DNA from: a virus
DNA: 37,387 nucleotides
Direction: 5' to 3' (one strand)
IMG/VR virus record: IMGVR_UViG_3300038326_000298
Span: 1 to 37,387 of that record
Position 1 is the first letter of the stretch. Each line of letters starts with the position of its first letter. Of the stretch, positions 17,570 to 37,387 are shown piece after piece. The notes beneath the pieces were generated by a model. That model was given only the letters and a program-made list of their open reading frames with translations, did no database searches and was not told where the DNA came from. The position numbers were made by a program, and so were the translations under genes.

Positions 17570-20500
17570 ATGCCTAGTAAGAATAATCCGAAGACTATTA
17601 TCAAAATAGGAGAGGGTAGTTCCGTTTGCCAAGATGGTTCTAAGGGTAATCTCTCTACTCAAGTCCAAATGTCTCAAGACGCATATGATGCGAACCAAAT
17701 CTCCGCAGAAAATCCCTTTGAGACATATCTCGGAGATGAAGTTCAATCTCATTTAGATGATTTAGCCTCTCAAGTAAAAATAAAACCACCCCGTTTAGGG
17801 GAGGGAGAGAAGACATATACTTCAGAGAATACCTCTTACACTATTTCTGGCATCCCTGATTGGGGTGTATTGAAGCAAGCGGATTCTGCACCTTGGGATA
17901 GAAATACTACGATAGACTTTGATGGGGTTACAGTAAACTCTACTGACTTCAGAAATAGTGGGTCTGAGACATACCCTTATTTATCTACAAACCCAAAACC
18001 CTTTGGGATTCTAGGTGCGGATCTTAGATCGGATGCTGTTTTTAATGTAGATGATGATACGGATCTTTTACTCGGAGGAGGAGATGGGGCTTCTTTTATT
18101 TCTTCAATGAGAGTAACTACTGGAGAAGATTTCAGACATACTCGAACCACATATACTAATGCCACAAATACAACCGAGGATGGTTTCACTATTTCTGGTT
18201 TCCTATTTCCTGCGGATCGAGGAACTGTCGCTCTTTTACATTGGGCAACAGATGTTCAGTATATCTCTGCAGCCTCTGTAACTGATATTTCAAACAGAGT
18301 AATAGGGGCGATTAATTTAGGTGAAGGCAGACTTAAAGAAGAAGAATACTTATCTGTTTTTATAGAAGGCTCAGATCAAAATGTATTTCCGAGTAAGATG
18401 GCAGGTCAGTATGACTTGAGAGAAATGCAGAATTTAGCTAAAAGATCAGACTTAGAGGGTGCAAATGGAGTTATTTCTTTATCAGGATATGCTGCGGATA
18501 ATAATTTAGGGGCTGTTAGACTATTAAAAGACCCTTCTGCTTGTTTCTTTGGGGTAGATAATACAACAGTGGACGCTCGTGGAAATATTCCTGTGCTTTT
18601 TGGGGCTTATTCTTATAATTCTGTGACTTCAAATTGGGTTGAAAACGAAACTAATTTCTTAGCGTATCGTTTACCCGCATTGGTGGACTATACTCCAACA
18701 GGTTTGAAAACCCCGAATGAGCATCGAGAACGATTTTTCCAAGTTATCCAACCTGCATCTACTTCAACAGATTTCTCTACCGCAGGAAATTATGTTACTT
18801 TTGGTGATGATTATTACACATATCAAGTAGCTAGATATCGTCATGTAGTTAAGTATAGTGATATCGGTTTAAATGTAGAAGGAAAAGGATCTTTCGCTTT
18901 AGTCCACTTTAAAAATGAATCTGCATTTGAGAAATTAGTTAGGGATGGTATTGCCCCGACTGAAGATGACCTTTGGTCTGTCAATTTCTTAAAACCAAAA
19001 GTGGGAGATCACATAGATAACTTGGTGGTAGATGGGGATGCGTATACAGAGTTAGGTATTCCTGTTCTTGGTGCGAAAAATAAAGATTCGATAACTAACC
19101 CTATAATTAGACCTAATGTTTTTGTGAGAAATAGAGATGTAGATGAAAGTGTTAATAGTGCCACAGTTGGAGAGTTCAGCCATGAAACATTCCAAAACAG
19201 CACAGAAACTGCATTTGATCCTACACAGGGGTATTATACCTCTATCTCAGGGTGTAAATATTTATTACCCACTAGAGATAAAAAAGATAAGTCCTCTACT
19301 CTCCTCAATTCTGCGGAAACACACCACAAGATTCTTAATAAAGTCTCATTACTCTCTCTCACAAATGGGGATTTAGATGCAACTATTCCAAGATATTTCT
19401 CTAAAGATACAACAGTAACTAAGAAATACAATGAGCCTTTTAACCCTTTCTTCTTTAACCTTTCCTCTTACACCGCAGAGGATGAAGTCCAAGTAGAAAT
19501 ATTTGTAGGGGATGATAGTACACATAAAGATCTTACTCCAACCACGCAATCTGTAAGTTTTGGGTGGTCAGACATAAGAAATGATACGACAACAGGGGTT
19601 GTGCCTGCTAACTTTTCTTACTTTGTGTTTTATTTTGTACCTAAAGGGGATATAGGGTTATGTACTTTTACTACAAGTGGAAATACTTGTCTAATAGCGA
19701 AAGATCCTCTTTTTCATCACGATGGTTTAGCTATTTCTCACACAAGAAAACCGACATACACAATAAACACCCAAAATGATGGACACAGAACTCAGAATTT
19801 GATGTACCACTCAGCCCGTCTTATTTCTTTAGTCGAAAATGTAGTTTCTTCTTCTGTATTTCTCCACTGCAAATATGGAGCAACCGACAGAAATGATGAT
19901 CAAGCATTTGCTGTCTTTAGATATGACCAAGAAGGCTTCAGAGTTTATCAAACCCTGACTTTATCCGCAGGTACAGGACTTGAGTTATGTTCTACTATTG
20001 CGAAGGTTGGGGTCGGCAATTTCCCCGACTACCCAATATATCGACCTTTAAATGAATCTGTACATAATCCCAACATAGAGGGTAGCCACGATGCCACTTT
20101 ATTATTAGTCCCTAACGAACAATATTTCATAGAAGCTCAACCTGATTTTGCAAATTCAGATATATATTTAGCGTTTGTAGGGAGTGGGGATTATACCGAT
20201 ACTGCCTCATACGATGCACATTTAGTGACCTCGTTTGGTGTTAACACCTATCAAACTTCAGTTGATTTTAGTAATAGGGTTGCGGGTTATGGTTTAAGTG
20301 AGACTAATATTAAGAGTAGTGGGGTAACAGAGTACCCGATACCTGTCGGCAATCAGTTAGATCATTATCCTTGGAAAGTAGCACTTATGCATCGTGGTTA
20401 TGATCTACATGAAGCTCCAAGAGTAAATGGATCAGAGTTACCTACATATGGGAATTTCCTTCAATACCCAAGTGGGATTATAGGGGTTTTAGGGAGTGGT

Positions 20501-21619
20501 GGGTATAAGAAAGCCACAGGAGGGCTGAATGTATTTCATGGTTCAGCGGTACAAAATCAAATACCTTTAAGCTCCCTCTTTACTTCTAAAAAAGACACTC
20601 AAGAAAGATTTCTAGATGAGTCTTATAGAATTAATGTGACCTTTAAATCTATGACAGGAGAAGAGAACTTAATGGGAGATGGTCTGCCTTTAGGTTCTAG
20701 TGCAAATCTTATTTCTGTAAGAGATGATGGGGCTTATGGCGTAAACAATCATGGAGAAGCAGGGTATCTTAGAGAGGGGCATCATTGGGAATGGTGTCAA
20801 GAGCTTAATCTTACAGTATATACTGATGGGAATGGAGATGATTATTATAAATCAGGAGAGGCTCAAGTCCGAGGACTGCCGAGTTTTTCAGATATGGTTT
20901 TAAGTGGGGCATCTTATGGAAATCCAAGAAGAGGTTTATTAGTTAGACCTCAAACAGACTACAACGGGACATCTTATTTCCCTAACAACTCCTACGATGC
21001 TTCTTGGAAGTTAGATCTAGCCACAATCCCACAGTCTTATTCTCATCAAGCAGATTACACTGCGGATTTAGCGACTAAAATTACAGGAAGAACCTTCTCA
21101 TATAGCAGAGCTTTTGACGTGGATTTCTCTAGAAGCGGAACAAAAGAAAACATGGTAGGTACTTCTCGTTTTAAGTTAAGAATTTTGGGCTTAGATATTT
21201 CTGATTTCTCACACTCTACTTCTGATCGTGGTATAATTATTTCTGCAAAGATCCCCGGACTTACTACATGGTTAGATGTGGGTCGTCCTAATGGTAGTGG
21301 TGTGAGCAAACAGCATATTTCTTTGGATGGTGCGGGTTGTCTTATTTCTTATCAAGAGGGTGTTCTTATTAAAGAGGGTTTGATATGTGTGGATCTTCTA
21401 TTGGAGATGGGGAATCTTGCCACTTTCATCAAAAACAGTTCAGATGAATGTCCTGTTTTAGTGAAAGTAGATTTCCTTGATAATGCAAAAGCGTTGGATT
21501 TAGATTTTGGGGAATCTGGGGATACGAAGATACCTTTAAGGGAAAGAAAAGGTCTTGTAGGTTTAGAAATACTAAGAATGTCAAATGGTCTAAACATAGA
21601 TGAAGATGTGGTAGTGTAG
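17570..21619 (+). CDS. Large beta-rich fibre-like structural protein
   Basis: This 1349-aa protein has TAAGGAG overlapping the upstream stop, 9 bases before the ATG. I recognise no family. The N-terminus is polar (NPKTIIKIGEGS), then a short amphipathic helix (about 48-70, containing EVQSHLDDLASQV) that could mediate trimerisation or docking. The rest is rich in Asn, Ser, Thr, Gly, Tyr and Asp with few charged helices, typical of beta-structured tail fibres. No signal peptide, membrane segment, coiled coil or simple repeat is visible. It lies between an adaptor-like gene and the giant gene with matching composition. A fibre or adhesin role is inferred from composition and context only. Confidence 0.82.
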   Translation: MPSKNNPKTIIKIGEGSSVCQDGSKGNLSTQVQMSQDAYDANQISAENPFETYLGDEVQSHLDDLASQVKIKPPRLGEGEKTYTSENTSYTISGIPDWGVLKQADSAPWDRNTTIDFDGVTVNSTDFRNSGSETYPYLSTNPKPFGILGADLRSDAVFNVDDDTDLLLGGGDGASFISSMRVTTGEDFRHTRTTYTNATNTTEDGFTISGFLFPADRGTVALLHWATDVQYISAASVTDISNRVIGAINLGEGRLKEEEYLSVFIEGSDQNVFPSKMAGQYDLREMQNLAKRSDLEGANGVISLSGYAADNNLGAVRLLKDPSACFFGVDNTTVDARGNIPVLFGAYSYNSVTSNWVENETNFLAYRLPALVDYTPTGLKTPNEHRERFFQVIQPASTSTDFSTAGNYVTFGDDYYTYQVARYRHVVKYSDIGLNVEGKGSFALVHFKNESAFEKLVRDGIAPTEDDLWSVNFLKPKVGDHIDNLVVDGDAYTELGIPVLGAKNKDSITNPIIRPNVFVRNRDVDESVNSATVGEFSHETFQNSTETAFDPTQGYYTSISGCKYLLPTRDKKDKSSTLLNSAETHHKILNKVSLLSLTNGDLDATIPRYFSKDTTVTKKYNEPFNPFFFNLSSYTAEDEVQVEIFVGDDSTHKDLTPTTQSVSFGWSDIRNDTTTGVVPANFSYFVFYFVPKGDIGLCTFTTSGNTCLIAKDPLFHHDGLAISHTRKPTYTINTQNDGHRTQNLMYHSARLISLVENVVSSSVFLHCKYGATDRNDDQAFAVFRYDQEGFRVYQTLTLSAGTGLELCSTIAKVGVGNFPDYPIYRPLNESVHNPNIEGSHDATLLLVPNEQYFIEAQPDFANSDIYLAFVGSGDYTDTASYDAHLVTSFGVNTYQTSVDFSNRVAGYGLSETNIKSSGVTEYPIPVGNQLDHYPWKVALMHRGYDLHEAPRVNGSELPTYGNFLQYPSGIIGVLGSGGYKKATGGLNVFHGSAVQNQIPLSSLFTSKKDTQERFLDESYRINVTFKSMTGEENLMGDGLPLGSSANLISVRDDGAYGVNNHGEAGYLREGHHWEWCQELNLTVYTDGNGDDYYKSGEAQVRGLPSFSDMVLSGASYGNPRRGLLVRPQTDYNGTSYFPNNSYDASWKLDLATIPQSYSHQADYTADLATKITGRTFSYSRAFDVDFSRSGTKENMVGTSRFKLRILGLDISDFSHSTSDRGIIISAKIPGLTTWLDVGRPNGSGVSKQHISLDGAGCLISYQEGVLIKEGLICVDLLLEMGNLATFIKNSSDECPVLVKVDFLDNAKALDLDFGESGDTKIPLRERKGLVGLEILRMSNGLNIDEDVVV

Positions 21620-21696
21620 ACATAACTTTGATTGTTCTTTGATATTTCTGAGCTATCACATTGTTGATGTAAAATATGAAAAGCGAGGTTCTAAAT
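21620..21696 (+). other. Intergenic spacer before the giant gene
   Basis: These 77 bases separate the 1349-aa gene from the preferred start of the giant gene. A TAAAAT at 21670-21675 resembles a -10 box but lacks a convincing -35 box at 16-18 bases. A 5-bp repeat, TGATA/TATCA (21640-21658), is too weak to call. The gap also contains an ATG at 21676 in frame with the giant gene but without a ribosome binding site. Confidence 0.4.
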
Positions 21697-24600
21697 ATGG
21701 CTTCTGATTTTGATCGTTTGAATAAAGCTTCTCAAAACATACAGGCTACTAACAATTCTGAGTCAGAACACTACTCAAGAAATAGGACAGTACGCTCTGA
21801 AGAGATAAAAACAGGATTGTCTCGCTTTGAGGGTTCATGGGCTAGTGAGTTTTCTCTTGGAGGTGGGCGTAAATATGATACAACTCCAATACCAACTTTA
21901 AAAACAGGGTTGGGGTTGCATGGGTTTGGGGATATTGATTTTATCCCGTATGTAGAAAACACAAATAGAATAGGTTTAGAGGGAGAAGCCACACTAGGCT
22001 CTCCTATTTCTTTTGAAGTATTAGGACCTACTCTGAAGTCCAATCAAGTAGATTGGACTTGGAGTATTACCAAGTATAATGATGGAGAATACTTAGAAAT
22101 AGAAAATCTTTCTAGTGGCACTATGAAAGAAATGTATGGCTTCACAGACGATGGGGAGCTTACTCTCCCATATACAGATGTGATAGATAATGGTGGTCTT
22201 TATGTTGTTTTCAGATATATTGGACATAGCATATCGACTGTAAACTCAAAAGACCCACAAAGAGTCCCTTACCATATATTTAAAGTGCATGGTATAAACC
22301 AAAATACGATTAAGATCTCTGCTGAAACTCCTATTTCTGAAGTGTTTGACTACTCTGTGGATAACACGCTTAAAGGTGTGATGTTCATACGAAAATCCGC
22401 TTCTCGTATGTTGTCTGTACCTTCTAGTGGTGGTAAATCTTACTTTGTCATGCCACCTGAGAAATCCTTGTCTCTCGACATTGAACCCCCTCTTGCAAAA
22501 TGGTTAGACGGCTCGTTCCATGACAGTGGTTTATTGGGATCTATTTCAACATACGGAAATAGATCTAAACTTCCTGTATTAAGCCCCCTTCAGTTTGGTG
22601 GTTTGGAAGTTTTGACTGGATCTTTGTCTAATACACCTAACCCTAGTGAGCCATCTACTTTCACTCTTAATGTGCAGTTAGAAGATACAGATGGCTTCTC
22701 TGTAAGATATAGTAATGTGCCACAAGGGAAGACAGTAGGAGAACACACTAGTACTTTTGAAAGTATTTCTTGGGTTGGGAAGATTATTAAAATAGTTGAA
22801 GTCGAAAGTACAGAAAAGGTTTTGGGCTTTTTTGAGGTAATCAATTCAACTCAAGTGACGGGTAAGAACTTAACACTTCGAGGAATCACGAAACAACACC
22901 ACACTAGTGGAATCGTTTCTTGGGATGTTTCTCAAACCTTAGACTCCCCTGGCCCTCTTGTGAAGTTCACAGTTCATGAGAGTATTTCAGACTTATTTGC
23001 GAAGAGTAACCCACAACCCCACGAAATAGACGCTACTAGAATCAAGTCTCTTATTTCTCCCTTGCTCTCAGAAGGTTCTTCTTCAGAAAAAGCCACTATG
23101 ATGAGGGCAAGCGATTGCTCTTGGGATGGGAAGGTTATTTCCAACCTTCTCGATTTGGGCTTCAAAGCAGTTGTTTACCCTGCAAAAGAATTGAATAGTA
23201 ATCTTGTCGCAGATTTCGAGAACCCAATAGACCCTAACTTATATGAGTTAGACTATGAAGGAGCTACTCTCTATTTCCATAGTGAGTATACACAAGAGCT
23301 TTCTATTCTTAATCACAATCAAAACCCTACAGGGAATCCTGTATTGTTTATTTCTTGTGTACCTTTAGCTCAAAACGCTTCTTTTGGAAACAGATTTACA
23401 GCCAAAGAAGAAGAAGTTGTTAAAGGTGCTTTTAGAACTCCAAAGATAAAAAACATCTTAAGTGCAGATGCTCTCACATTTGGAGAGGCTTTATATTCAT
23501 TAAGCTCTTTCCCAGACACACTTTACATCCCAGGCGTTTCTATTTCAGAAATACCGATGACAGGTGCTCTTGAGTTTTGGAAGCATGAACAAGTGGGCAT
23601 GGACTCCGTAGAGTATGTCCAAGTCAGATACAAACTAGTTGAAACACATCTAGAAGGTGTGAAGCTACACGTTTATGATGTTGATGACCTTGGATTGATG
23701 GGGGTTGCTAACTTCGATAAGATCCTTACCGAAGGTCATGTTGAGTTTGTTAGAAATAGTAGTCTCAATTTCAGAGAATCTATTTATGCGGGTTTAAGTC
23801 TCAGATCAGAAGAAATAACTTTTAACAAAGGTCTTATTTCTTTAGATGAGAGAGGAAACCAAGTATTAAAGATCAGTGGACTAGAGACAGGAGAGTCTTC
23901 TGTTGTCTACGATAGTTCAGATAAAGAATGGAGCGTAGGTGGAGACTATAATGTAAGTCTTTCTGTGAAGAGAGGGGATCTTGTAGCCTCCAACGTGCTT
24001 GAGTTTTCAAACACCGACTTAACTATCACACCTTATAGCTCTTCCGTTAAAGTTAATATTACAGATTCAGATGAAATAAGATTTGAAGCGACTTCAGATC
24101 AGAATTATCTCCATGAAGATCTTAGTGGGTATTATCTAAATACAGAAGCTGTCACTATTTCTACGAAACAAAACCCTACTTTAACCGCAGGGGAGCGTGT
24201 TGTATTTGGTTTAGATTTCGTTGCAGACTGCCACAATCCTTTTGCTACTTCATGGTATCTCAGAGTAAGCACAGGGTCTACAGACGCTGAAGATGTGGTA
24301 GATGAACTTAAACTTTCTGTCCCACAAGAAGCTCGATATACTGACGCACTAATGGATGGTGTAGTAGGCACTCTAACAGGTAGAAATGCCTGTGTATATC
24401 CTGCATATGCTTACATAGAAACAGCTCCTGTAACAGCTCTTGAGAGCGTGTTAAATGCCGAATTTGGAGTCGAAATACTACCTGCTTCAAGATATTTACT
24501 CTCTTTAGAAAGTACAGAAGCAGGTCAAGAAGATAAGTGGGTCAGCCTAGTAGTCAACAACGAGCAGATCACCTTTAAGATTTCTACATATCCCTCTGTA

Positions 24601-27600
24601 GAGCAGATGGTTAAAGACATTGCAAGTCAACTCAATAAGGATCTCTACTTCGGACACTCCGCACGACTTTTAGATCGTGCTGGTTTTTATGACGCTTGCT
24701 TTCAAGATTATGATTTTTTAAGTGGTGCAAAAACTCCCAATGCTAACCTTCAAGAAGATATAACCTCAATGGAAGCAGCAGGACATGCTGTAGGTGGAGA
24801 GCGTCAAATTCTTTGGGTTACATCTCACGATGTGAGACACCCTAGATATCCTTTTGATGTCAATGATGCAGATACACATAGATTAGCGTTAATTTGTACA
24901 GGGCGTGGCTGTAATAATAAAGTCTTAGACTCAAACACATTATTTCTGTCTACTAAAGCAAGCCTACAAGAAAATAGACTCATAAACATCATCGCTTCTC
25001 TTGGAGAAATAGATGGCTCGTTTATGACCTACCTTTTCAATGGGGAAGATGTAAAAACTCGATACTTTAACCGTATGGGTTATTTCCACACAGGGTCAGC
25101 TTTAGCAGACAATACCACTCAGATAGGTAACCCTACAGTTTTAGGTCAAGAAGGAAACCTTGAGCTAGGATTTCCAAAAGAAGGGCTTTTGCCTTTAGGT
25201 AGACTCTTAGGTGAATCTTTTAGAATAGAACAACAACTATTAGAAGGAAATAGTACGGCTAATTTTGTTACTAGTTTTGTTGAAGATCCTACAGGCAGAT
25301 CCGCTTTTTATCCGATAAGAAGTAACTTAACAAGGTCTTTCCATTTTGGAGTAGACTCTCATGTTTCTTCTGCGGAAAGTTCAGATTTTGATGTTCAAAA
25401 CAGTTGGTTAGACAACCAAAACTTCTCCTTTGATAACAGCTCTTTGACGACTCCGGACTTTAGAAACTTTGCTTGGGTTTCTAAAGATACTCTTGGGTTA
25501 TTAAAAACCAACAGTGGAGCTGTGACAACAGAGGGTGGTTATGTAGAAATCCACGCTTCTTTCTCTGCCACACCAAAAGAAAGAGAATATTTCCATAGCA
25601 CTTACTTAGGAAATAACTTTGGTGGCGAAGATTACATAGCAAAAATAGATTCGTCTAAGTTCATCCTTCCTCTAATAGATAAGAGTGTTCTTCAAAAAGG
25701 AGATGCGTTCTACTTAAGAAATAGTGCTAACCAACAGGCTAAAGCCACCATATTTAGTATTATTAATCAAAATCAGAATCACGAGAACACACCACTCTCT
25801 CTCAGAGTGTTGGTGCAATCTGTAGGAGGACAATACGGAGGTTATAGTCAAATAAGCTCTTTCATGCCTACGGTTTCTTCTATCACAGACGACACTTTTA
25901 GACCTGTATATTCTCCTATCTCGTACACCTATGCTTCTCTTGTAGTTGGAAATAACATACTATGGAACGAAGGGAATATTAAAAGCCTTCTCACCACTCA
26001 AGCAGTTGCCGAGTTTAACAACAGTAACAGCAATCTCAGAGAAACCTCTGCAATAGACGGAGGCTATGGGACTTTTGGTTCTCAGTCTGCAACTCTTATT
26101 TCAGGCGGTAGAATCGGATTGTTTACAGGACTTCCACTTTCCCAAGCAGGTATTTCTTTTGCTTCTATTGTTGGGGGTGTGACTTGGGGTCAGAAGCTTG
26201 AATTTGATCATACATATACAGACTATGAGAAGAACAACTACAGAGTTTTTGAGACTTTTGTAGATCATGGGGTATTTCCTTTTGTCAGCTTACCTTCTGG
26301 TTCTAGCTCAGACAATGCAGGAACAATAGGAAATCTTTCTAGCGATTCGTCAAAGAAATCCAATTATAAAGGTACTGTTTTCGGGGGTTCTTCAGGCTTG
26401 AGGGTCTCAGGCGATATTCAACTCTACGTCAAAAACATTCGTGTTCTCGGAACAGACAAATACACAGCTTTTGTTGTACACTCTGATAACGCACCTGCTA
26501 CTGCAACAGACTATTTAATTGGAGGTGTGGCTTCTTCAGAGAATCGCTCTGATTATTGGAAAGACTGGGAACCCTCCACTACAGGAGGTGTGGGCTATTT
26601 TCCACAATCAGCACGAAGAAATTCAGAGTATTCACTACAACGAGGAGCGGGGGCTCATATGCCTTCGGGAGTTGGGTTGTTTGGTTTCAACAACACTTAT
26701 AATAGTGCAACGGAAACTAATGCTACCATCAAGAGAACTGCTACTATTTCTTTAGGTTTGACGATTGCTGACTTAAAAGGTATTTCTGCAAGTCTTGGTC
26801 AAAACTTAGTAGACCAACAAATAGACGAAGGTAAGCTTAATCCTTTTGTTGGAGAAAGTAACACTCGAACTTTATCGGAAACAGGCGAGACTTTATTTGA
26901 GATGGGGCAGTTTGCCACCTCTGATATTTCAAGCATGGCGTTACCTGCACTTAGAGGTTGCTTCTTATATTTAGAAAGTCAAAACCAAGATAAAACGGAT
27001 GGCTATTTTAAGATTATAGACGTTCCTGTTGTAGCTCCAATAGATGCTTCATCACAAGAGTCGAAGTTTGGTAGTGAAAACACCTTACATGGGTATATTT
27101 CTAACTATAACTCAAAAGTTAGAAATAGCTTATCCTCCATAGTAGCTAATATTACGGTGAGAGTGGAGTCCAATAGGTATTTCTCAGAAATACCTAACAA
27201 TAGTGCAAACAACAGACTCGTTAAGCCAGAGCAACTTTCTCCACCTCAAGAGAAACTTAGAAATGGATTGGATTCATACAAGTGGAGAATCGTACATAAA
27301 GAGTCTCGACAAGGGATGTACTTTCAGCACGTCTATGTTTTTGATGTAGAAAATAGTGGAGGTTCACCCTCCTCTTCTTCTTCAGATTTACAAGGTGTAG
27401 AGATTAACCCTAGAGCTTTAGGGAAGCGTTCTTTACCCGCAGAGATTGTTCCTCTTGCTACTTACAACACACCTTCAGATACACCCTCTGATTTAAAGTT
27501 CAATGACGAGCACCTTTCGGATCAATATAGTAATATCAGACTATTAGGTGTCCACAGAAATATGGACAGAAGAGGAAAAACTTCTTCTTTAGCTTTTGTT

Positions 27601-30600
27601 ACCGTAAGTTCAGATAGTGCTAATGAACTCTATACACTAGATAATGCAGGTCAGGATCTGAGGACAACTGAAGCCGTACCTAATCTTGTTGAAACTTTAG
27701 GAAGCACACCTTCTCGTCTTGTTGTTTATTCCTCAGAAAGATCAGATCGACTTGATGAGTCTTATTCTTTAACCACGAAAAGGAGATTTGAGAACGGTGA
27801 GTCCGGTTTTGTATCTCTTGGGTATCCTGAGAGAATGGGCTTAGGTGTTGTTCTCGACGGTGGTTTGGGTGTTGTTAGTGGAAATGCTATTCGAGTCCAC
27901 CCTCAAAAAGGAAGTACAGATTCTCTTGGAGCACTAGTCCTTTATTCTTTCCCTTATGTAGATCCTAGAGATGAAGTGAGAGATGGGAATCCTGTAAGCC
28001 TACCTTCTCGTTTCAATCGCACTGAGTTCTATGGGGATGTTATTGTTGCAGGATTTAACTCAGACTTAGTAATTGAAGACGCACGTTCTGCGGAGGGTTC
28101 TTTCGCCAGAATAAATGAGAATGAGGCTTCTGCTTCTACTGTTAAAAACTTCCAATCTCAAGTGATGAGATATGCAAGTATTTCTAATCAGACTAGAATA
28201 TCACATGCAAATACGTTGTCTTATTTGCAGTCAGACCACTTTAAAGACTATGTAGATTTCTTTTTAGATACTGACATTGAAAATAACTTCTTTAAGAAAT
28301 TTATAGGCCCCTCCGACTACTATTATTTAGAGTCAAACTTCTTCCGAAATATACCAGCCCCTCCTCTACCAAACGACACTTTGTTTCCTTGGACAAATGC
28401 GGGGATTAGGGTAAAGAGCGGAGGAGGCTTAGTATATGAGAGAGCTTTCAGACCACAAGACGCTACAGGCTCAGACTTAGTAGTTTCACATAGCAAAGGT
28501 GTCAAATCAGATCGTGGTATTAAAGGTCTTGAAATCCCTGCGTTTGGTGAATGTTTATTATTACCTAAAGGCCCTGCAACTCTTGGAGGTCGTGTTCTTG
28601 ATAAGAACGATGGTTCAGGTGCAAAAATTAGAATAGGAAATACACCTACAGACTTACCATTATATGAGTTCTATAATGGCCCTACTCGTTTGAACTATGG
28701 TGGAACACACGCTATTTCTATAGGAAATGTTCTACAAGAGCATGGGGTCTATGGGAGACCTGAGTTTAAGACTGCGGAAGAGGAAAAGCAGCTCTTATTT
28801 GCACCTAAAGGCAATCAGTCTGAGTTAAATCCAATCGAATATGATCCCGGATCTCTTTCTCAAGCTTATCACCACTCAATATCAAATGCTTCTGATGTTT
28901 GGGGCGGTAAATCTGAGCTTATTAGTCCTCGTAGTGTAGAGCTATATGGTTACTTAGCTCTATTATCCACAACGGGGACTAATTTTGATATGTCCAACGC
29001 CCCCTCTGGGAGGCCATATTTCTATGACACCTATTTCTCTCTATTTTATGTGTGGCGAGGAAAAGTACATTACATAGAGTTGACGCTTTTAAATGATGAC
29101 CCGAACAGTAATGCTTTCTTCCTTGAGCGTAGAAATAATGACAATAGACCCTCTTACCAATATGGGAATGTTAATCAAACTGTACAAGCACCGTATGTTG
29201 GAGACACAGCATATGGGACACATGTAGCAGATGAGACAAAAACAGTAGTTCCACAGTTTTCTTTCTACTTACCCGAAGGTGTTCAGAATGTCTTTATAGA
29301 AGCAAAAGGATATAACACATCAGGAAACCAACATAATAATGATACTGCTCATGGGGTCTTACTACATGCTAGTCCTACATTAACGATCACTCTTCCTCCT
29401 GTAGCAGACTCCGAAGTTCTTGTGTCTGGAGACACCCTCGCTGACGACTCTTTTGTCTATGGAAGTCCAAATAACTATAATGACATCACTTTAGCTACGG
29501 ATATAGAATATAGATTCTTAGACTACTCTGGTAGGTATTTGGATGCAGTCGCTTGGGGAGCACCTACTCCTATCGGGGGTGCGAACGATGAACTTATACA
29601 TTCAATCAAGATTAGCACTAACCTAAATGCTCCAATATACAGAGATAAAGTTGGACTTTATTTTAGTTATCAAAGAATCCATGAGACTTTTACAGAAGTG
29701 AACGCTAGAGCGAATCAAATAAATTTTGATACCTCATTTTCAGACAATAACGACTTTCTGGCTAGAACCCTTGAGCTGGATGATGCTGATATAAATAAAG
29801 AGTATTATGATGAAGGTGCTGAGAGACTCACATCAAATATGCAAATAAGATTACTCGATGGTATGGTCTTAGAAGATGTAACCACAGGTACTTTTTACAC
29901 TGTTGGAGAAGTAGGTAGATATCGAGGTTGGCACTCTCACATGAAGCCTACATCACAAGTAGGTGATTATGTTCATTATGAACATGGTATGCACAGCCTT
30001 GATTATCAGAATAAGATAGACGAGATGGACAGCATCTTAGGAAGTCCTCTTATCCGAAATGCAAACTTCGGGTCTATTATTTCTTCCAATGGTCATTCTT
30101 CCCCAGAAATAATTACAGATATACCTAGTCACTTCAACTATGAAAACCCTTTGTATGGGTATTTAAATGAAGATAATTATCCTTTGGAACACAAAAAGAA
30201 TGGTCTTGGCGACATTGTAGATGGTGGTTTTGTTCGTAGACCTTTAGTAGGTCATAAGTTCAGAATTGTACCAAATGTCGAGTTTGTTCCTGTACTCGGA
30301 TATCGCTCAGTTAGAGGTGGTATTTCTGTACCTTACGACAAGAGCACAAGTTATACCACTTATATCAATGATGCAGACGCTGTGCTTTATGACGCTGATT
30401 ATTCTTTCTTAAGAAATGATATCGGGAAGAAGATCTATCTTTGTGGAACATATGAATATGCTTATGTAGGTTGGTGGGTAATTACTGATGTAGTCTCAGA
30501 CTATGAGGTCAATCCTACAGAAGCCATTACAGCAAGTCTGTTTGACGTAGCTGTAGTGAGAAAGATCAAGAGATCTGGAGAGTTCTTAAGTAACACCGCA

Positions 30601-33600
30601 AAACAAAACAATATGATCTTACCTATGCGTCCTCACAACCCTGTGCTTGAGGCTACTTTAGACGCTAACTCAAATGGTAAGAATGTGCTGAATGGAACAT
30701 CGTCTGACAAGAACATAGACTCTCATTATATAGATCCTTTTTTCCCTGAAACCTTGACCAACAGTTTTGCTAAGAGTGTTTATTTTGGAGAAGATGCAAA
30801 TAGTCAAGTAAACAATAGTGAACATATTTCTAATGTTTGGCTAAGTCTCCAATACTTAGACGATAGCGGTAACTTAAAGTGGATTGGCATTAGCCTTAGT
30901 GCTTCAGATTTAGTCACTGTCAATGGACTTGTTAAAACCAATGGCTCTTTCGCCCTTCAAAGCACTTTAGACCAATTAGTAATGTTTAATGGTGTAAATA
31001 TTGGGAAGTTCTTCAAAGATATTGGTCTTTCTGCTTGGGCTAACTATGGTAACGCACCCTTTATTTCTTGGGATCTCAAGACAAGTTATAATGATGGGTT
31101 CTCTAAATATAGTATCCCAGGGTTCTTAGGCTACACCCCCACTTCTAACAGTGCTTCGATTTGTGGTATTTCTTGTAGAATAGACTCTAACTCTTTGACC
31201 CAAGAACAAAGAAATACTCTTCTAGGAAGAGGGACATTCTTAAATGTAGACCTTCTTTTCAATTCACAAACTTTTTTCCATATTGGAACTAACTTTTCCT
31301 CTGCTTTAATGAGTACTTTGGAGAACATAGATACACAAGCATCCAATGATGGCAATTTCAATAACTTTAAAGGTTTTTACTATCGAAAAGGTGTGAATAC
31401 AAATCTATGTATTTCCCACTTAGATAAGAATAGCTATTACCCTAATGCTTATGTTGGGCCTACAGCAAGCTATTTGGACTCTGACAGCAATTTGGGTAAT
31501 GGTTTCACAAATGAGAAATCTCTTGGTGGTAGCACCCGAACCTCTGGGTCTGCAACGGGGGGTGTACGTTGGGTATTCTCAGCTCCTCTTTTAGAAGAAA
31601 ACGTAGGGTCTTATTTACACCTCACCAAACAAAGACCTTATCGTTTTGGAGTTCCTACTTACTCTCAGAAAGTTGCTTTAGAGGCACACAAAAATAGAAG
31701 CACAGGTAATACAGACACCACGCTTGTCAATCCTTTTGGGTGGACTTCGGGTTATCAAAACCTAAACGACATCACAAATGGTGAGGAGTTAGATTTAGCT
31801 ACAGACATCTTCAGAATAAACAGATGTCCAACTACAGGAGATATTCTTGTAGGTGGGGACTGCGAATCTTATGCTGTTGAAGATATTCTTTGTAGAAGTC
31901 AAAAAGGATTTACAAAGAAAGGCGTAGAAATATCTTACTCTCCTCTTTCAGTAGGTGGGAACTGGCCTGACTCAGCTACAGGAATACTGCCAACTACAGG
32001 AAGTCTCAACTATCCGATCATGTACGCTCTGCAACCTATTGCGAGAGAAAGAATAGTTACAGTCAATCCTAGTAGTGCCAACTCTTCTATAGTTTTAGCT
32101 AGAGGGCAACATGGTACTGCTCCTATGGTTATCCCTGCAAACCCTCTAGCTTTAGAGACTACAGGTGCAATTGTCGGAAATAATGCTGACGCTACTGCTT
32201 CTTCATTCTTAATAGATGAGTCAACGTATGGGAAAGACTACCATTGGGGTGAGAAGATTCTCATGGATGTTTCTCGACCTTGGTTGCTATTCGGTAGAGA
32301 CAACGCCATTCAGACGCATGATCTTTATTTTATAACCCCTGCCGAAGCGGCCGGTGCTTCTGGAAACCCACAAGACCTGCCTGAAAGCATCATAACACAA
32401 GCAGGCTCAGAGAGTTCTATACTCTATCAATCAGAAAGTGGAAACGCTGAGTCTTCTTCTCAAGAAATATACACAAAAAATTCATACTTCACACAGAATG
32501 CTGTGTATGCTTGGACACCTAGCGGAGAATGGTGGCAAATACAAACCCCCCTTTATTCTTATGGTGAATCTGACACTAATTCTTCTACTAGAAAAACACC
32601 AATTTCTCCCACTACACCACCTCCTACTTTAAGAATAGATTTGACTGAAGCATTTACTCAATCTATTTCAGCAGGTAGTGGGTTAAACACGCCCTTTGTA
32701 GGTAAATCTCCAAGAGGTTCGAGATTAAATAGGATTTGGGTTAACTTTGGTGTAGATGGAGATCATTCCGCACTTCCGGGATCTCCTTTCAATGTAGACC
32801 ATGAAGAATACTATGAAGATCTTGGAGCTACAGACTTAAGAGATTCTATCTTAGGAGATACTACTCTTAAAACTTCCATCAAAACTATGAGAGATACTAG
32901 TAGTGTCTTTAGAACCTTAGATGGAAAAAACACAAACAGATCCATCACTTTCAATCTTGTTGTAGAAATACCTGGATCTACAGGCTCTTCTCAAGAGGAC
33001 CTTGATATCGGTTATGTCTCAGAGTTTGACGCACTAAGATACAACCAAGATTGGTCAAAATTTGCGGGTGAAGACTATGGGTTTAGTAGCATAGGAGGGT
33101 CAAATGGTTCTTCGTTTGGAGGCAGACTTCCAACGGGTGCATATAGCCACTCTAATAACTCTGAAAACAAACGTGCTATTTATGAGGGTTTAGCAAAACC
33201 TACAAACCAATCTCAGTATTTCGGTGGGACTGTCGTTGTACCTTTGTATATAAACAGAGAAGCAGGCGACATGATGCCAAATGTGATGGAGAGATTTGTC
33301 ACAGTAGGCCCTGCGAGATATAGAGAGACAACGACCAATCTCTTCGCTCAACTTGGAGATAAATATAAATATGTTTCAGATTGGTCTATTGGTAATTGGC
33401 ATTCTGGTCTTGGGGCGACACCACTCAGTAACTCTCATTTGTTTGACAAGAATGTTTCTTATCTTGGAGACGCTTTATTTCCGTATACGAGTTCAAGATT
33501 AGAGATGGAAACAAACGCTATAACGCCTGTAGTTTGGGGTTCTCAGAATTTCTATTCAAGCAAGAGTACATATAACGCATCGCCACAGACTGTAAACGGT

Positions 33601-34380
33601 ATTTTGGAGGTGAATAATAAATCAGGAAAAGCACTAAGTTCTTTCTCTTTGATGGCTTTCGATGACATACGATCCGCAGGTGTTCTTGCCTCTTCTATGC
33701 CACGATCTTCAAGAGTCGGTGGAGGTGTGAACTCTTCATTTACTTCGGGGATATACCCAGACACTCGACTTTTCGATCCGTTTGGTGCTTTTATAGAATC
33801 TCCTCTAGCCCTCCACAGCCCCGCCACGACAGGTATTACAATCGCACATGGAGGAGCAAGTTTAGGGTCTAGTAAAAACGATTCTTATGCATTCGCAGGA
33901 GACGAAGTTCGCAGTCCACAATCTACATCTTCTTCGCACAACTCCTTTACTGTGGCTCTAACTCCTGTAGGGGATGGTTTCACTGCTTCTTTCGGAGCAA
34001 TCACAATGCCTTCTATTTCTGGGGGAGCAAATGTCGCTACTTCTAGTTTATACAATGACATTGCTAGCACAAACCATTGGGATTTCGCTAGATATGGGAG
34101 GATTTTAGAGAATTCAAAAGGAACTGACCCTAAAGATAGAAGATTTAAGGTTGGCAACTGGCTCGATAAAATCATGCAAGCATACGGTATTCCTGCACAA
34201 AGTGGGTCTATGCTTCCTACAGGAGCGAGAGTATTCTTAGAGGTAACTACACCTTGGGCTCTGAAAAACACTCAATCTAACAACGGGACTTGGATTTCTT
34301 CGGTAAAGTGTTCGTTTGAAGTAGAAACCGCAGATGGTACTGCTTGGACTCAAGATGTTAATACTTTAGGAGAAGATTAA
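21697..34380 (+). CDS. Giant beta-rich fibre/adhesin-like protein (4227 aa)
   Basis: This single uninterrupted frame covers a third of the window. I choose the ATG at 21697 (MASDFDRLN) because GAGG lies 8 bases upstream; an in-frame ATG at 21676 would add seven residues but has no ribosome binding site. No known family is recognised. The composition is rich in Ser, Asn, Gly, Thr, Tyr and Asp and poor in long helices or heptads, so it does not look like a tape measure protein. A beta-alpha stretch near residue 933-980 (KWVSLVVNNEQITFKI, then a helix) resembles the small domain in the adaptor. A poly-Ser linker (PSSSSSD, about 1890) and a Pro-rich linker (TPISPTTPPPTL, about 3634) suggest separate modules. 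No collagen-like or short tandem repeats are seen. It ends in a 1-base overlap with the next gene. A very long receptor-binding fibre or tail-sheathing decoration is inferred. Confidence 0.85.
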   Translation: MASDFDRLNKASQNIQATNNSESEHYSRNRTVRSEEIKTGLSRFEGSWASEFSLGGGRKYDTTPIPTLKTGLGLHGFGDIDFIPYVENTNRIGLEGEATLGSPISFEVLGPTLKSNQVDWTWSITKYNDGEYLEIENLSSGTMKEMYGFTDDGELTLPYTDVIDNGGLYVVFRYIGHSISTVNSKDPQRVPYHIFKVHGINQNTIKISAETPISEVFDYSVDNTLKGVMFIRKSASRMLSVPSSGGKSYFVMPPEKSLSLDIEPPLAKWLDGSFHDSGLLGSISTYGNRSKLPVLSPLQFGGLEVLTGSLSNTPNPSEPSTFTLNVQLEDTDGFSVRYSNVPQGKTVGEHTSTFESISWVGKIIKIVEVESTEKVLGFFEVINSTQVTGKNLTLRGITKQHHTSGIVSWDVSQTLDSPGPLVKFTVHESISDLFAKSNPQPHEIDATRIKSLISPLLSEGSSSEKATMMRASDCSWDGKVISNLLDLGFKAVVYPAKELNSNLVADFENPIDPNLYELDYEGATLYFHSEYTQELSILNHNQNPTGNPVLFISCVPLAQNASFGNRFTAKEEEVVKGAFRTPKIKNILSADALTFGEALYSLSSFPDTLYIPGVSISEIPMTGALEFWKHEQVGMDSVEYVQVRYKLVETHLEGVKLHVYDVDDLGLMGVANFDKILTEGHVEFVRNSSLNFRESIYAGLSLRSEEITFNKGLISLDERGNQVLKISGLETGESSVVYDSSDKEWSVGGDYNVSLSVKRGDLVASNVLEFSNTDLTITPYSSSVKVNITDSDEIRFEATSDQNYLHEDLSGYYLNTEAVTISTKQNPTLTAGERVVFGLDFVADCHNPFATSWYLRVSTGSTDAEDVVDELKLSVPQEARYTDALMDGVVGTLTGRNACVYPAYAYIETAPVTALESVLNAEFGVEILPASRYLLSLESTEAGQEDKWVSLVVNNEQITFKISTYPSVEQMVKDIASQLNKDLYFGHSARLLDRAGFYDACFQDYDFLSGAKTPNANLQEDITSMEAAGHAVGGERQILWVTSHDVRHPRYPFDVNDADTHRLALICTGRGCNNKVLDSNTLFLSTKASLQENRLINIIASLGEIDGSFMTYLFNGEDVKTRYFNRMGYFHTGSALADNTTQIGNPTVLGQEGNLELGFPKEGLLPLGRLLGESFRIEQQLLEGNSTANFVTSFVEDPTGRSAFYPIRSNLTRSFHFGVDSHVSSAESSDFDVQNSWLDNQNFSFDNSSLTTPDFRNFAWVSKDTLGLLKTNSGAVTTEGGYVEIHASFSATPKEREYFHSTYLGNNFGGEDYIAKIDSSKFILPLIDKSVLQKGDAFYLRNSANQQAKATIFSIINQNQNHENTPLSLRVLVQSVGGQYGGYSQISSFMPTVSSITDDTFRPVYSPISYTYASLVVGNNILWNEGNIKSLLTTQAVAEFNNSNSNLRETSAIDGGYGTFGSQSATLISGGRIGLFTGLPLSQAGISFASIVGGVTWGQKLEFDHTYTDYEKNNYRVFETFVDHGVFPFVSLPSGSSSDNAGTIGNLSSDSSKKSNYKGTVFGGSSGLRVSGDIQLYVKNIRVLGTDKYTAFVVHSDNAPATATDYLIGGVASSENRSDYWKDWEPSTTGGVGYFPQSARRNSEYSLQRGAGAHMPSGVGLFGFNNTYNSATETNATIKRTATISLGLTIADLKGISASLGQNLVDQQIDEGKLNPFVGESNTRTLSETGETLFEMGQFATSDISSMALPALRGCFLYLESQNQDKTDGYFKIIDVPVVAPIDASSQESKFGSENTLHGYISNYNSKVRNSLSSIVANITVRVESNRYFSEIPNNSANNRLVKPEQLSPPQEKLRNGLDSYKWRIVHKESRQGMYFQHVYVFDVENSGGSPSSSSSDLQGVEINPRALGKRSLPAEIVPLATYNTPSDTPSDLKFNDEHLSDQYSNIRLLGVHRNMDRRGKTSSLAFVTVSSDSANELYTLDNAGQDLRTTEAVPNLVETLGSTPSRLVVYSSERSDRLDESYSLTTKRRFENGESGFVSLGYPERMGLGVVLDGGLGVVSGNAIRVHPQKGSTDSLGALVLYSFPYVDPRDEVRDGNPVSLPSRFNRTEFYGDVIVAGFNSDLVIEDARSAEGSFARINENEASASTVKNFQSQVMRYASISNQTRISHANTLSYLQSDHFKDYVDFFLDTDIENNFFKKFIGPSDYYYLESNFFRNIPAPPLPNDTLFPWTNAGIRVKSGGGLVYERAFRPQDATGSDLVVSHSKGVKSDRGIKGLEIPAFGECLLLPKGPATLGGRVLDKNDGSGAKIRIGNTPTDLPLYEFYNGPTRLNYGGTHAISIGNVLQEHGVYGRPEFKTAEEEKQLLFAPKGNQSELNPIEYDPGSLSQAYHHSISNASDVWGGKSELISPRSVELYGYLALLSTTGTNFDMSNAPSGRPYFYDTYFSLFYVWRGKVHYIELTLLNDDPNSNAFFLERRNNDNRPSYQYGNVNQTVQAPYVGDTAYGTHVADETKTVVPQFSFYLPEGVQNVFIEAKGYNTSGNQHNNDTAHGVLLHASPTLTITLPPVADSEVLVSGDTLADDSFVYGSPNNYNDITLATDIEYRFLDYSGRYLDAVAWGAPTPIGGANDELIHSIKISTNLNAPIYRDKVGLYFSYQRIHETFTEVNARANQINFDTSFSDNNDFLARTLELDDADINKEYYDEGAERLTSNMQIRLLDGMVLEDVTTGTFYTVGEVGRYRGWHSHMKPTSQVGDYVHYEHGMHSLDYQNKIDEMDSILGSPLIRNANFGSIISSNGHSSPEIITDIPSHFNYENPLYGYLNEDNYPLEHKKNGLGDIVDGGFVRRPLVGHKFRIVPNVEFVPVLGYRSVRGGISVPYDKSTSYTTYINDADAVLYDADYSFLRNDIGKKIYLCGTYEYAYVGWWVITDVVSDYEVNPTEAITASLFDVAVVRKIKRSGEFLSNTAKQNNMILPMRPHNPVLEATLDANSNGKNVLNGTSSDKNIDSHYIDPFFPETLTNSFAKSVYFGEDANSQVNNSEHISNVWLSLQYLDDSGNLKWIGISLSASDLVTVNGLVKTNGSFALQSTLDQLVMFNGVNIGKFFKDIGLSAWANYGNAPFISWDLKTSYNDGFSKYSIPGFLGYTPTSNSASICGISCRIDSNSLTQEQRNTLLGRGTFLNVDLLFNSQTFFHIGTNFSSALMSTLENIDTQASNDGNFNNFKGFYYRKGVNTNLCISHLDKNSYYPNAYVGPTASYLDSDSNLGNGFTNEKSLGGSTRTSGSATGGVRWVFSAPLLEENVGSYLHLTKQRPYRFGVPTYSQKVALEAHKNRSTGNTDTTLVNPFGWTSGYQNLNDITNGEELDLATDIFRINRCPTTGDILVGGDCESYAVEDILCRSQKGFTKKGVEISYSPLSVGGNWPDSATGILPTTGSLNYPIMYALQPIARERIVTVNPSSANSSIVLARGQHGTAPMVIPANPLALETTGAIVGNNADATASSFLIDESTYGKDYHWGEKILMDVSRPWLLFGRDNAIQTHDLYFITPAEAAGASGNPQDLPESIITQAGSESSILYQSESGNAESSSQEIYTKNSYFTQNAVYAWTPSGEWWQIQTPLYSYGESDTNSSTRKTPISPTTPPPTLRIDLTEAFTQSISAGSGLNTPFVGKSPRGSRLNRIWVNFGVDGDHSALPGSPFNVDHEEYYEDLGATDLRDSILGDTTLKTSIKTMRDTSSVFRTLDGKNTNRSITFNLVVEIPGSTGSSQEDLDIGYVSEFDALRYNQDWSKFAGEDYGFSSIGGSNGSSFGGRLPTGAYSHSNNSENKRAIYEGLAKPTNQSQYFGGTVVVPLYINREAGDMMPNVMERFVTVGPARYRETTTNLFAQLGDKYKYVSDWSIGNWHSGLGATPLSNSHLFDKNVSYLGDALFPYTSSRLEMETNAITPVVWGSQNFYSSKSTYNASPQTVNGILEVNNKSGKALSSFSLMAFDDIRSAGVLASSMPRSSRVGGGVNSSFTSGIYPDTRLFDPFGAFIESPLALHSPATTGITIAHGGASLGSSKNDSYAFAGDEVRSPQSTSSSHNSFTVALTPVGDGFTASFGAITMPSISGGANVATSSLYNDIASTNHWDFARYGRILENSKGTDPKDRRFKVGNWLDKIMQAYGIPAQSGSMLPTGARVFLEVTTPWALKNTQSNNGTWISSVKCSFEVETADGTAWTQDVNTLGED

Positions 34381-35078
34381 TGATAATTTTTACAAGGTCT
34401 GACAATAAGCCGGTGCAGACTACAAGACATTTAAGTGAAAACATCGACATGAATGGTAAGTATGTTGTAGATTTCCCCGACTGTTTAAAAATAGATCGGC
34501 TTGACGGTACGCCTATAGACATAGTCTCAAGAGAAATAGAGCCACAATTCTTAAAGCAATATCCTTCATATGATCATGTTGTTTATAACCCGATCATTGA
34601 TAACTACGATTTCTTGGATGATACTCAGAACTTCCCATTTTCTACAGGTCAAACTGCTTCAAGATATAAGATAGGTGAGACACCAAACACTTTCGCAGTC
34701 TTACCTGTCAATACGAGTACGAGCTGGAAAGGTGTAGCAGTAACTCAGACTATTGATATTTCTGCTATTACTACCGATGGTTTGGGTCGTGAAACTTTCC
34801 TCTTGTATTGGCGAGCGGTCAAAAAAACCATTTCACACGACCAATCCCCCATCACTCTACTGAATAGAGAAAATTCACCTTCTCGTCTTAAATATGTAGA
34901 AGCAGAAGAAGATTCTCAATACTCAGTTTATATTTCTAATAATGATGGTAACACATACGAACTTGCAAAAAGACTTACCCCTGTGAGTTTTGAAGAAAGA
35001 TCAGAAAATGTGAGGATCGCTTTCGTGAATCACTCTTCTGAAGACATCTTCTTCCTCTCGTATGCCCTTATGTTTTAA
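34380..35078 (+). CDS. Hypothetical small structural protein
   Basis: This 232-aa protein is not recognised. Its start overlaps the stop of the giant gene by one base (TAATG) with AGGAG 7 bases upstream, so its translation is probably coupled to the giant protein. It opens with MIIFTRSDNKPVQTTRHLSE, has aromatic Pro/Tyr/Asp-rich stretches (YPSYDHVVYNPIIDNYDF), a predicted beta strand pair (VAVTQTIDISAIT, FLLYWRAVKK), and ends in a hydrophobic strand (DIFFLSYALMF). The size and coupling fit a cap, chaperone or accessory subunit of the giant protein, but the sequence does not show which. Confidence 0.85.
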   Translation: MIIFTRSDNKPVQTTRHLSENIDMNGKYVVDFPDCLKIDRLDGTPIDIVSREIEPQFLKQYPSYDHVVYNPIIDNYDFLDDTQNFPFSTGQTASRYKIGETPNTFAVLPVNTSTSWKGVAVTQTIDISAITTDGLGRETFLLYWRAVKKTISHDQSPITLLNRENSPSRLKYVEAEEDSQYSVYISNNDGNTYELAKRLTPVSFEERSENVRIAFVNHSSEDIFFLSYALMF

Positions 35079-35092
35079 GGAGAATATTAAAA

Positions 35093-37387
35093 ATGGCTGA
35101 GAACTACGGAAATGACGTATCTAATGTGTTAGAGACTCTTAAATATAACTTCTCTAACGTAGTATGGCAGGCGGGAAAACCCCCGCTTGACAGTGAACTA
35201 AACTTAGTTGGGCAAGTGAACTGGGAGAATTTAGCGGAACAGTTAAGAAATACTACCCATAGTGGCTTTCTTTTAGATCCATTGAGGGCAGAAAAAGACT
35301 ACTTTTTCTATGAGGAATCTTCTAACTATTTTGAAATAAATAGAGGTTTGGATAATCCTCTTGTTGCACTAGTAAATGGTTGGGTAGTTCCTGTGATAGG
35401 GTGTAACTCAGATGATGGTGTTAAAAATGTTATCACACTACCACCACCACCCTTAACGGAAGCGAGAACAGATATAGTATTTCTTGAAGTTTGGAGAGCC
35501 GTTGTTTCTCCAAACAATGCTGTCAATAAGCCTCAGAATAATGCGATATATCCTTATGGGAACGTGCAATACACACAGGATTCTTTACCCGACGAGATGG
35601 TAGACGCAAATGTTGGTTTTGAAACTACAAAGCGAGTGCAAGTACAATATAGACTCAGAGTTACGGAAGGAAATAACACTATTGAAGAGTACCTTGAGGG
35701 TTTAGGGTCTTTAGACCTGTATGCACAAGGTACTGCCAATCTCCCTGTATTAAATTATACTTTCACTAACATGGGTGAAGAACTCGGTGATGTAGGTCTG
35801 TGGAGAGCGGGTTCTGGAGACGATCAGAGTAAAAACGATCTCGGTTGTGTTGACGGCTATGTATATACAATTCCTGTCTGTGCTGTGTTTAGAAGAAACG
35901 GTGGTGGCTATACTGCTGTGGAGCTGAACCAACAGCATCCAAGCCACAATGGTTCTGTAACAAGAACCCCAAGTGGTTCAAAAGGGTTGTTAAAAAACCT
36001 CACGCTTACAAATCTTCTTGGAGATTCAGACATAGGGGATATTCCTGTGCAGAATCTAATTGGTTCTGGATTTGATGACATTCTATTCTTCCAAGGTGGA
36101 GATCCTCTTTTTGCCACTATAGGAGAGGGGGTCCAAAGAGAAATAGTTAAGTTAGATAGTATTTCTACAGCACAAAACATTATTCATATTGTCTCAAGAG
36201 GTCATGGTGGGACTCAAGGAAAGCCTCATCAAGCAGGTACTTCTATCAAAAGGTTCAATGAGCGTTCAGATAATCTCTATGCCGACCAAGTGCATAAGAA
36301 CGACTTGCTTGACCTTCGCCATGCTGTGGGTCTTGGAAGTTGGGATTACACACAACTCCTTAACAATGCCGTTTCTTCTCTTATTTCTAATAACCTCAGA
36401 ACGACTATGAAGCAAGCAGGGACAGGTAGCTTCTCTAAGGGTACTGTGATTGAAGAAGTGTCTGTATTCTCCACAGATAATACATTCACCTACTGCACGA
36501 TAAGAGATAAAACTAACGCTGTTCGTCAAGTGTGGTCAGACGCTTCTGCATTTCAGAGTGAGATCACTTGCTTACTTGACATGAGTAATGGAAACCCATT
36601 AGACGCTCAAGGTCTTGACGTAAATACAAAACTATCTTGGACAATCGGTGCAGACTTTCAGCCAAGAGGTTATTTTAACAACTTAAGTAATGGTACTTGT
36701 TTGTTCTTTAAGATCGGTGGAGAAACAGGTACGGGTGGTCTAAGATCAGGAATAAATCAAAATCAATCTACAGTAAGGTTTGTTTCTCCTAAAGAAATGG
36801 AAGGTAGATTCAGTCCCTTCAAGATTTCCTTCCCGACTCATAATAGACCTAATGCAGAAGACCCACTAGATAACGGAACGCAAGGACTTTATACTTCTCC
36901 AACAAGAGAAAGCAACTTTGAAGAACCTTATATTGTTCTTGGAACTTCTTTATTGCCAGACACTGTTTCTTCTACCCTCGATACTCAGATTTTCAATCGC
37001 ACTTTCAACGGGGATAAAGTTTGGGTAGTTAAAACAAACACCAACTACATCAATGTAAAAAACAATCTTGTTTTAAACAGTACGACTACTTTAAGTAACT
37101 TAATTACAGATAGTAATGTCTACCCATCAGGTTTTTACTCAAAGGCTTATCTTGTAGCTTTTGGAGATACAACAGTATCAACCAACAATGGTTGTTTTAA
37201 GATTATTGGAGCAGGAGACATTACACCTATTAATAGCTCTTTAAATACTCCAATGTCTGCTCAGGACTTACCTTTCTGCCTATTTCTTAAGAGAGTAGGT
37301 TCTTCCGATGATGTCTTTGCTAACTCAGCAGGTAATCTTACGTTAGAAATAAGAACACAAACTTTAGATTCAAGAGATACAGATAAC
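35093..37387 (+). CDS. Fibre adaptor-like tail protein (SELN motif), paralogue 2, 3' end outside window
   Basis: The frame starts with TAAGGAG 10 bases before the ATG and stays open to the right edge, giving 765 residues so far. It is a paralogue of the protein at 14335. The two align without gaps from the start: VVWQAGKPPLDSELNLVGQV at residues 23-42 matches VVFQDGKSVLDSELNLSQEI at the same numbers. RTDIVFLEVW, KRVQVQYRLRV, VDGYVYTIPVCAVFRR and NDLLDLRHAV follow in the same order. It lacks the inserted domain of paralogue 1, and instead has its own stretch with IIHIVSRGHGGTQGKPHQAG before the DLLDLR block. The rest is beta-rich. It probably starts a second fibre cassette continuing to the right. 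The adaptor role is inferred. Confidence 0.85.
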   Translation, partial: MAENYGNDVSNVLETLKYNFSNVVWQAGKPPLDSELNLVGQVNWENLAEQLRNTTHSGFLLDPLRAEKDYFFYEESSNYFEINRGLDNPLVALVNGWVVPVIGCNSDDGVKNVITLPPPPLTEARTDIVFLEVWRAVVSPNNAVNKPQNNAIYPYGNVQYTQDSLPDEMVDANVGFETTKRVQVQYRLRVTEGNNTIEEYLEGLGSLDLYAQGTANLPVLNYTFTNMGEELGDVGLWRAGSGDDQSKNDLGCVDGYVYTIPVCAVFRRNGGGYTAVELNQQHPSHNGSVTRTPSGSKGLLKNLTLTNLLGDSDIGDIPVQNLIGSGFDDILFFQGGDPLFATIGEGVQREIVKLDSISTAQNIIHIVSRGHGGTQGKPHQAGTSIKRFNERSDNLYADQVHKNDLLDLRHAVGLGSWDYTQLLNNAVSSLISNNLRTTMKQAGTGSFSKGTVIEEVSVFSTDNTFTYCTIRDKTNAVRQVWSDASAFQSEITCLLDMSNGNPLDAQGLDVNTKLSWTIGADFQPRGYFNNLSNGTCLFFKIGGETGTGGLRSGINQNQSTVRFVSPKEMEGRFSPFKISFPTHNRPNAEDPLDNGTQGLYTSPTRESNFEEPYIVLGTSLLPDTVSSTLDTQIFNRTFNGDKVWVVKTNTNYINVKNNLVLNSTTTLSNLITDSNVYPSGFYSKAYLVAFGDTTVSTNNGCFKIIGAGDITPINSSLNTPMSAQDLPFCLFLKRVGSSDDVFANSAGNLTLEIRTQTLDSRDTDN
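35168..35189 (+). promoter_or_regulatory. GC-rich hairpin in the 5' coding region of paralogue 2
   Basis: CAGGCGGG (35168-35175) pairs with CCCGCTTG (35182-35189) over 8 bp with one G-U wobble and a 6-base loop. It lies about 75-95 bases after the start codon, close to the coding position of the hairpin in the other adaptor gene. The sequences of the two hairpins are unrelated. Confidence 0.35.

Follow-up and report, generated by a model that had tools for sequence, protein, structure and literature searches.

Huge phages are predicted to encode proteins of up to 7,694 amino acids, some of which have tentatively been annotated as structural (PMC7162821). The protein described here is like those giants in its huge-phage setting, its extreme length and its tentative structural role; the part of that account concerned with them describes no family, no fixed gene slot, no common base and no alternative distal parts. 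In general terms, very large structural-type proteins of huge phages are already known; what is new is a defined protein family, the slot that it occupies and the series of lengths found there. The jumbo myovirus CBB carries very long, thin whiskers, a possible functional analogue to which no gene is assigned (PMC5259590).

Tunturiibacter phage Tunturi_5 is comparable in that its tail block (gp240-gp257) contains gp25- and gp6-like genes, a homologue (gp247) of the 1,073-residue protein F1073 of our window (the whole stretch of viral DNA analysed, 37,387 nt), and a separate gene annotated as tape measure (gp257, 1,106 aa; the tail is 167 nm long). It differs in gene order, and none of the 14 tested tail-block proteins matches the slot protein; the other large genes of the Tunturi_5 tail block are annotated as RCC1-like. 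The 485-kb uncultured phage LR745208.1 has its baseplate block in common with the window, but no match to the base domain described below. The wedge protein of the window aligns with that of LR745208.1 over its full length, and partially with those of Bacillus phage G and Tunturi_5. LR745208.1 also harbours, on the strand opposite to its baseplate block, a beta/loop-rich open reading frame of 3,642 amino acids (L006:5287-16215, + strand), for which BLAST detected no resemblance to the giant of the window.

The giant gene and its neighbours

The giant gene is a single open frame without an internal stop, specifying a protein of 4,227 amino acids (~464 kDa). The frame opens at 21676 or 21697; we have taken the ATG at 21697 as the start, because a GAGG motif precedes it by 8 nt and because the start and its upstream GAGG context are identical in the homologue at locus L003. 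For 4,227 random codons of the window's composition, the probability of a stop-free run is ~10^-128. A contig from another metagenome (L002) is 100% identical to the window giant as far as it reaches (residue 2331), a 4,296-aa homologue (L003/L004) aligns over the full length with 63% identity (4,340 alignment columns), and segments of a 4,077-aa homologue (L005) align at ~35% identity. With homologues over its whole length, the giant cannot be put down to an error of assembly or reading, and, as judged from these comparisons, the predicted protein of 4,227 residues is genuine and conserved. The differences per codon position between the window gene and that of L003 (0.28, 0.21 and 0.54, the third position being highest) are those expected under constraint at the protein level. 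Neither the pieces of the giant nor the base of a short family member found relatives by tblastn in 50,697 phage records, and the profile of the C-terminal region found none in a collection of genome contigs.

Table 1. Features of the giant gene and its surroundings, in window coordinates.
Feature	Position	Strand	Basis
gp25-like baseplate protein	3879..4922	+	phrog_43/phrog_975; homologue of Tunturi_5 gp242
gp6/J-like baseplate wedge protein	4919..8200	+	phrog_6, E 2e-27; homologues in LR745208, Tunturi_5 (gp241) and phage G (gp188)
F1073 protein	14335..17556	+	homologue of Tunturi_5 gp247 "tail fiber protein"
F1349 protein, directly before the slot	17570..21619	+	54 loci; synteny
GAGG, Shine-Dalgarno-like	21685..21688	+	8 nt before ATG 21697; read from the sequence
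Giant slot protein, 4,227 aa	21697..34380	+	open frame and homologues
N-terminal base (residues 1-740), common to slot proteins of every length	21697..23916	+	profile and BLAST searches; AlphaFold2
Middle part, giants only, non-repetitive	23917..30813	+	islands of conservation around residues 2001-2300 and 2701-3000
Variable, indel-rich segment (residues 2401-2700)	28897..29796	+	15-19% identity to L155 vs 46% overall
Second more variable segment (residues ~3001-3200)	30697..31296	+	identity comparison among giants
C-terminal region, giants only, conserved (652 aa)	32422..34377	+	extreme C-terminus among the best-conserved parts
F232 small protein, directly after the slot	34380..35078	+	synteny
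F1723 protein, cut by the window end	35093..37387	+	N-terminal module common with F1073; synteny

On the + strand, the genes follow each other in the order gp25-like, gp6/J-like, those for proteins of 1,533, 255, 205, 1,073 (F1073) and 1,349 (F1349) amino acids, the giant, the 232-aa protein (F232) and the cut protein (F1723). F1073 and F1723 have an N-terminal module in common (~350 profile columns) and are both homologous to Tunturi_5 gp247; they are probably two different fibres on equivalent docking sites. Directly before the gp25-like gene, at 2-3808, lies a gene that is cut by the start of the window; its product is helix-rich and has 1,268 amino acids or more. Two adjacent proteins (12849-13616 and 13706-14323) each match phrog_5417, a family of unknown function, and probably arose by tandem duplication.

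Three claims of the sequence-only reading concerned the gene itself: an intact 12.7-kb frame for 4,227 residues, a non-helical, heptad-poor composition, and a location in the fibre block after an adaptor-like gene. The frame has withstood scrutiny by its absent stops, the chance estimate and its homologues; the composition is confirmed by the residue counts given below; and the adaptor-like gene proves to be a member of the F1349 family, with baseplate genes upstream.

One base and three distal parts in a common slot

With a profile of the giant's first 300 amino acids, we found the same domain just after an F1349 homologue in many other contigs. The common base reaches to about residue 740 in the window protein and to ~820-870 in short members; a base of ~740-860 residues starts every slot protein, whatever its total length. 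The window protein matches the base profile A3 with 594 bits over profile positions 8-834, being itself one of the 25 rows of that profile; its kinship with shorter members is also found by BLAST, independently of A3. Searching with the base and clustering near-identical stretches yielded 57 entries, some of which are pieces of one protein. All these relatives occur in metagenomic contigs and are known from sequence alone; the contigs include ones of 402, 497, 536 and 619 kb. The order F1073-F1349-slot-F232-F1723 recurs in dozens of uncultured contigs, at almost every locus with sufficient flanking sequence, and the window giant sits between F1349 and F232/F1723. By its predicted base and its gene position, it represents the giant form within a slot family conserved across uncultured huge phages. 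A literature search found no paper that describes this family.

Slot proteins range from 998 to ~5,090 amino acids and fall into three size classes: short (998-1,203 aa), medium (1,468-2,212 aa) and giant (2,954-5,090 aa). The longest, in contig G007, has the base and the C-terminal region in a single frame of 5,105 codons. The F1349 neighbour in G007 (L103:2287-9885) is also long, 2,533 amino acids vs the usual ~1,000-1,400, so that length plasticity is wider than the slot alone. Two loci, L039 and L054, have no protein in the slot, and F1349 is directly followed by F232 and F1723. The contig of L054 (G005) encodes a giant elsewhere, which appears to cross the contig ends and would, when joined there, be ~3,450 amino acids long; this suggests a circular genome of ~289 kb.

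Profile comparison of the short, medium and giant distal parts detected no relationship between them; the base alone is common. The giant distal part likewise showed no homology to F1073, F1349 or F1723. Among the giants, found in some 12 distinct phages, there is one homologous middle and C-terminal region, which occurs only in contigs with giants (members of at least 2,954 aa), the window included. Within the slot family, a right-handed beta-helix (PF13229), a tailspike-type fold, was found only in medium members, L067 (E 8e-15) and L121 (E 7e-6), but neither PF13229 nor a related beta-helix in the window giant; two distant giants had no Pfam match at all, beta-helix included. The fold known from PF13229 tailspikes and fibres is thus present in medium slot proteins, with no match in these three giants.

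The proposed role of the giant protein

The length of the giant and its location in a tail locus could suggest a tape measure protein, an identity that the sequence-only reading had denied and that we reject as well. The giant has a beta/loop-rich composition, its fraction of helix-favouring residues (AELKMQR) being 0.31, and no signal of heptad periodicity. In G002, the contig of L003 and our closest relative, a separate tape-measure candidate is predicted at L014:9259-12816: a helix-rich protein of 1,186 amino acids with strong heptad periodicity and an AELKMQR fraction of 0.51, located directly before gp256/255-like and gp254-like genes, as ordered in Tunturi_5. The position expected for a tape measure is thereby filled. 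Moreover, slot lengths of 998-5,090 amino acids would mean five-fold differences in tail length among related phages, and five records (possibly fragments) have no A3 match in the slot. Taken together, it is exceedingly improbable that the giant measures the tail.

We propose instead, with a probability of about 0.6, that the giant is an elongated, baseplate-anchored fibre or adhesin of a contractile-tailed huge phage. The sequences themselves show an intact gene, a conserved base, distal parts that are interchangeable, a fixed gene slot and a separate candidate for the tape measure; presence in the virion, docking on the baseplate, an elongated shape and binding to a receptor or surface are all inferred. 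The base (residues 1-~740) would dock on the baseplate beside the F1073, F1349 and F1723 proteins, and the distal part of ~3,500 residues would project outward and contact the host surface. In T4 long-tail-fibre proteins, roughly 0.05 nm of length corresponds to one residue; if packed likewise, the giant would extend over ~200 nm. The tail would measure ~180 nm when the 1,186-aa candidate is scaled by the Tunturi_5 ratio (167 nm/1,106 aa).

The fibre reading is favoured by the company of the giant gene in an operon-like run, which includes gp25- and gp6-like genes and one whose product is homologous to an annotated tail fibre protein, by the F1073-F1349-slot-F232-F1723 block being kept in many huge phages, and by the existence of a tape-measure candidate as a separate gene. 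A product of the late phage genes that is secreted or stays associated with the cell, outside the virion, would also fit a family whose members found here are known from their genes; as the giant gene adjoins baseplate and fibre genes and shares their orientation, we consider this improbable. The fibre reading gains further from the slot family's conserved N-terminal anchor, one base bearing alternative, unrelated distal parts, an arrangement typical of phage fibres and tailspikes, and from the beta-helix found distally in medium members. The beta/loop-rich composition and the strand-rich N-terminal model argue in the same direction. AlphaFold2 predicted residues 1-740 as mostly strands (pLDDT 62, pTM 0.65); this model had no significant match among PDB folds, and its best matches in BFVD were partly fibre-named, names to which we give no weight because the TM-scores were ~0.1. 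The model of residues 3040-4227 (1,188 aa) had a pLDDT of 33 and was uninterpretable.

Other observations weaken the fibre reading. There is no direct match to fibre families: Pfam and PHROGs gave nothing significant for the window giant, and four profiles covering its whole length found no relatives in the PDB by sequence. Profile self-comparison revealed no internal repeats, and we found no collagen-like runs, chaperone domain, Ig module or carbohydrate-binding module in the giant. The sequence-only reading had looked to predicted beta-helix, Ig or carbohydrate-binding modules as support for a fibre; strands are indeed predicted at the N-terminus, while none of these modules was found in the giant.

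The same searches bear on an ejected internal enzyme, such as the virion RNA polymerase of N4, or an enzyme of another kind. Ejected phage proteins may exceed 3,000 amino acids, a point in favour; an enzyme fold over much of the length, which the sequence-only reading had named as fatal to its proposal, did not turn up in these searches. Pfam had no match in the window giant or in the two distant giants, the four whole-length profiles none in the PDB, the giant lacks D-x-D-G-D, Walker A and HExxH motifs, and the base is also present in proteins of 1,000 amino acids. We regard such a polymerase, or an enzyme of any other type, as very improbable.

The giant's C-terminus, among its best-conserved parts, weakens the fibre reading too. 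In a fibre, the tip that binds the receptor tends to vary most; within the giants, the variable segments are internal, and no variable C-terminal tip is seen. This unusual conservation leaves room for a role as a mere stalk, or as a decoration or whisker on the tail or around the baseplate without a specific binding partner, receptors being bound by other proteins of the block. The 1,533-aa protein (window 8200-12801) is a better candidate for a receptor-binding tip than the giant: compared with its L003 counterpart, its N-terminus is 74-77% identical and its fast-evolving C-terminal third 21-37%. Phage CBB, moreover, has tail hairs of ~119 nm to which no gene is assigned (PMC5259590). Against such a purely structural role, the slot belongs to the baseplate/fibre block and is separate from the tape-measure/hub block of G002, and the swapping of distal parts among phages resembles host adaptation; we think it unlikely, and the baseplate-anchored fibre or adhesin remains our preferred reading.

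History of the distal parts

In the tree of the base, the giants require four changes, and well-supported branches make at least three of these unavoidable; in that of F1073, they are split into several lineages that surround one short clade and the medium groups. Both trees are unrooted and result from quick searches, and the giants fall in about four places on either. Homology among all giant distal parts is most simply explained by an old giant form whose place was later taken by short and medium parts, as the trees also suggest. Alternatively, the giant part may have spread among phages by transfer.

The sequence-only reading had also suggested a new class of extremely long protein. The giant is indeed of beta type, very long and without a curated family, yet it is a member of a family rather than an isolated oddity. 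A more far-reaching proposal is that of a baseplate slot with one base and a five-fold length range, in which the distal part of the giants (more than 2,000 aa) represents a new class of structural appendage, ancestral and repeatedly replaced by shorter fibres during host shifts; we put it forward tentatively, as possible but rather doubtful in its entirety.

The giant proteins of huge phages have mostly been left "hypothetical"; here, one of them is assigned to a family with a common base, a fixed slot and a phylogeny, and with three alternatives for the distal part. The three size classes built on that base provide a concrete comparison for what extreme length gives a phage, and the slot family offers a route to testing this in a cultivated relative.
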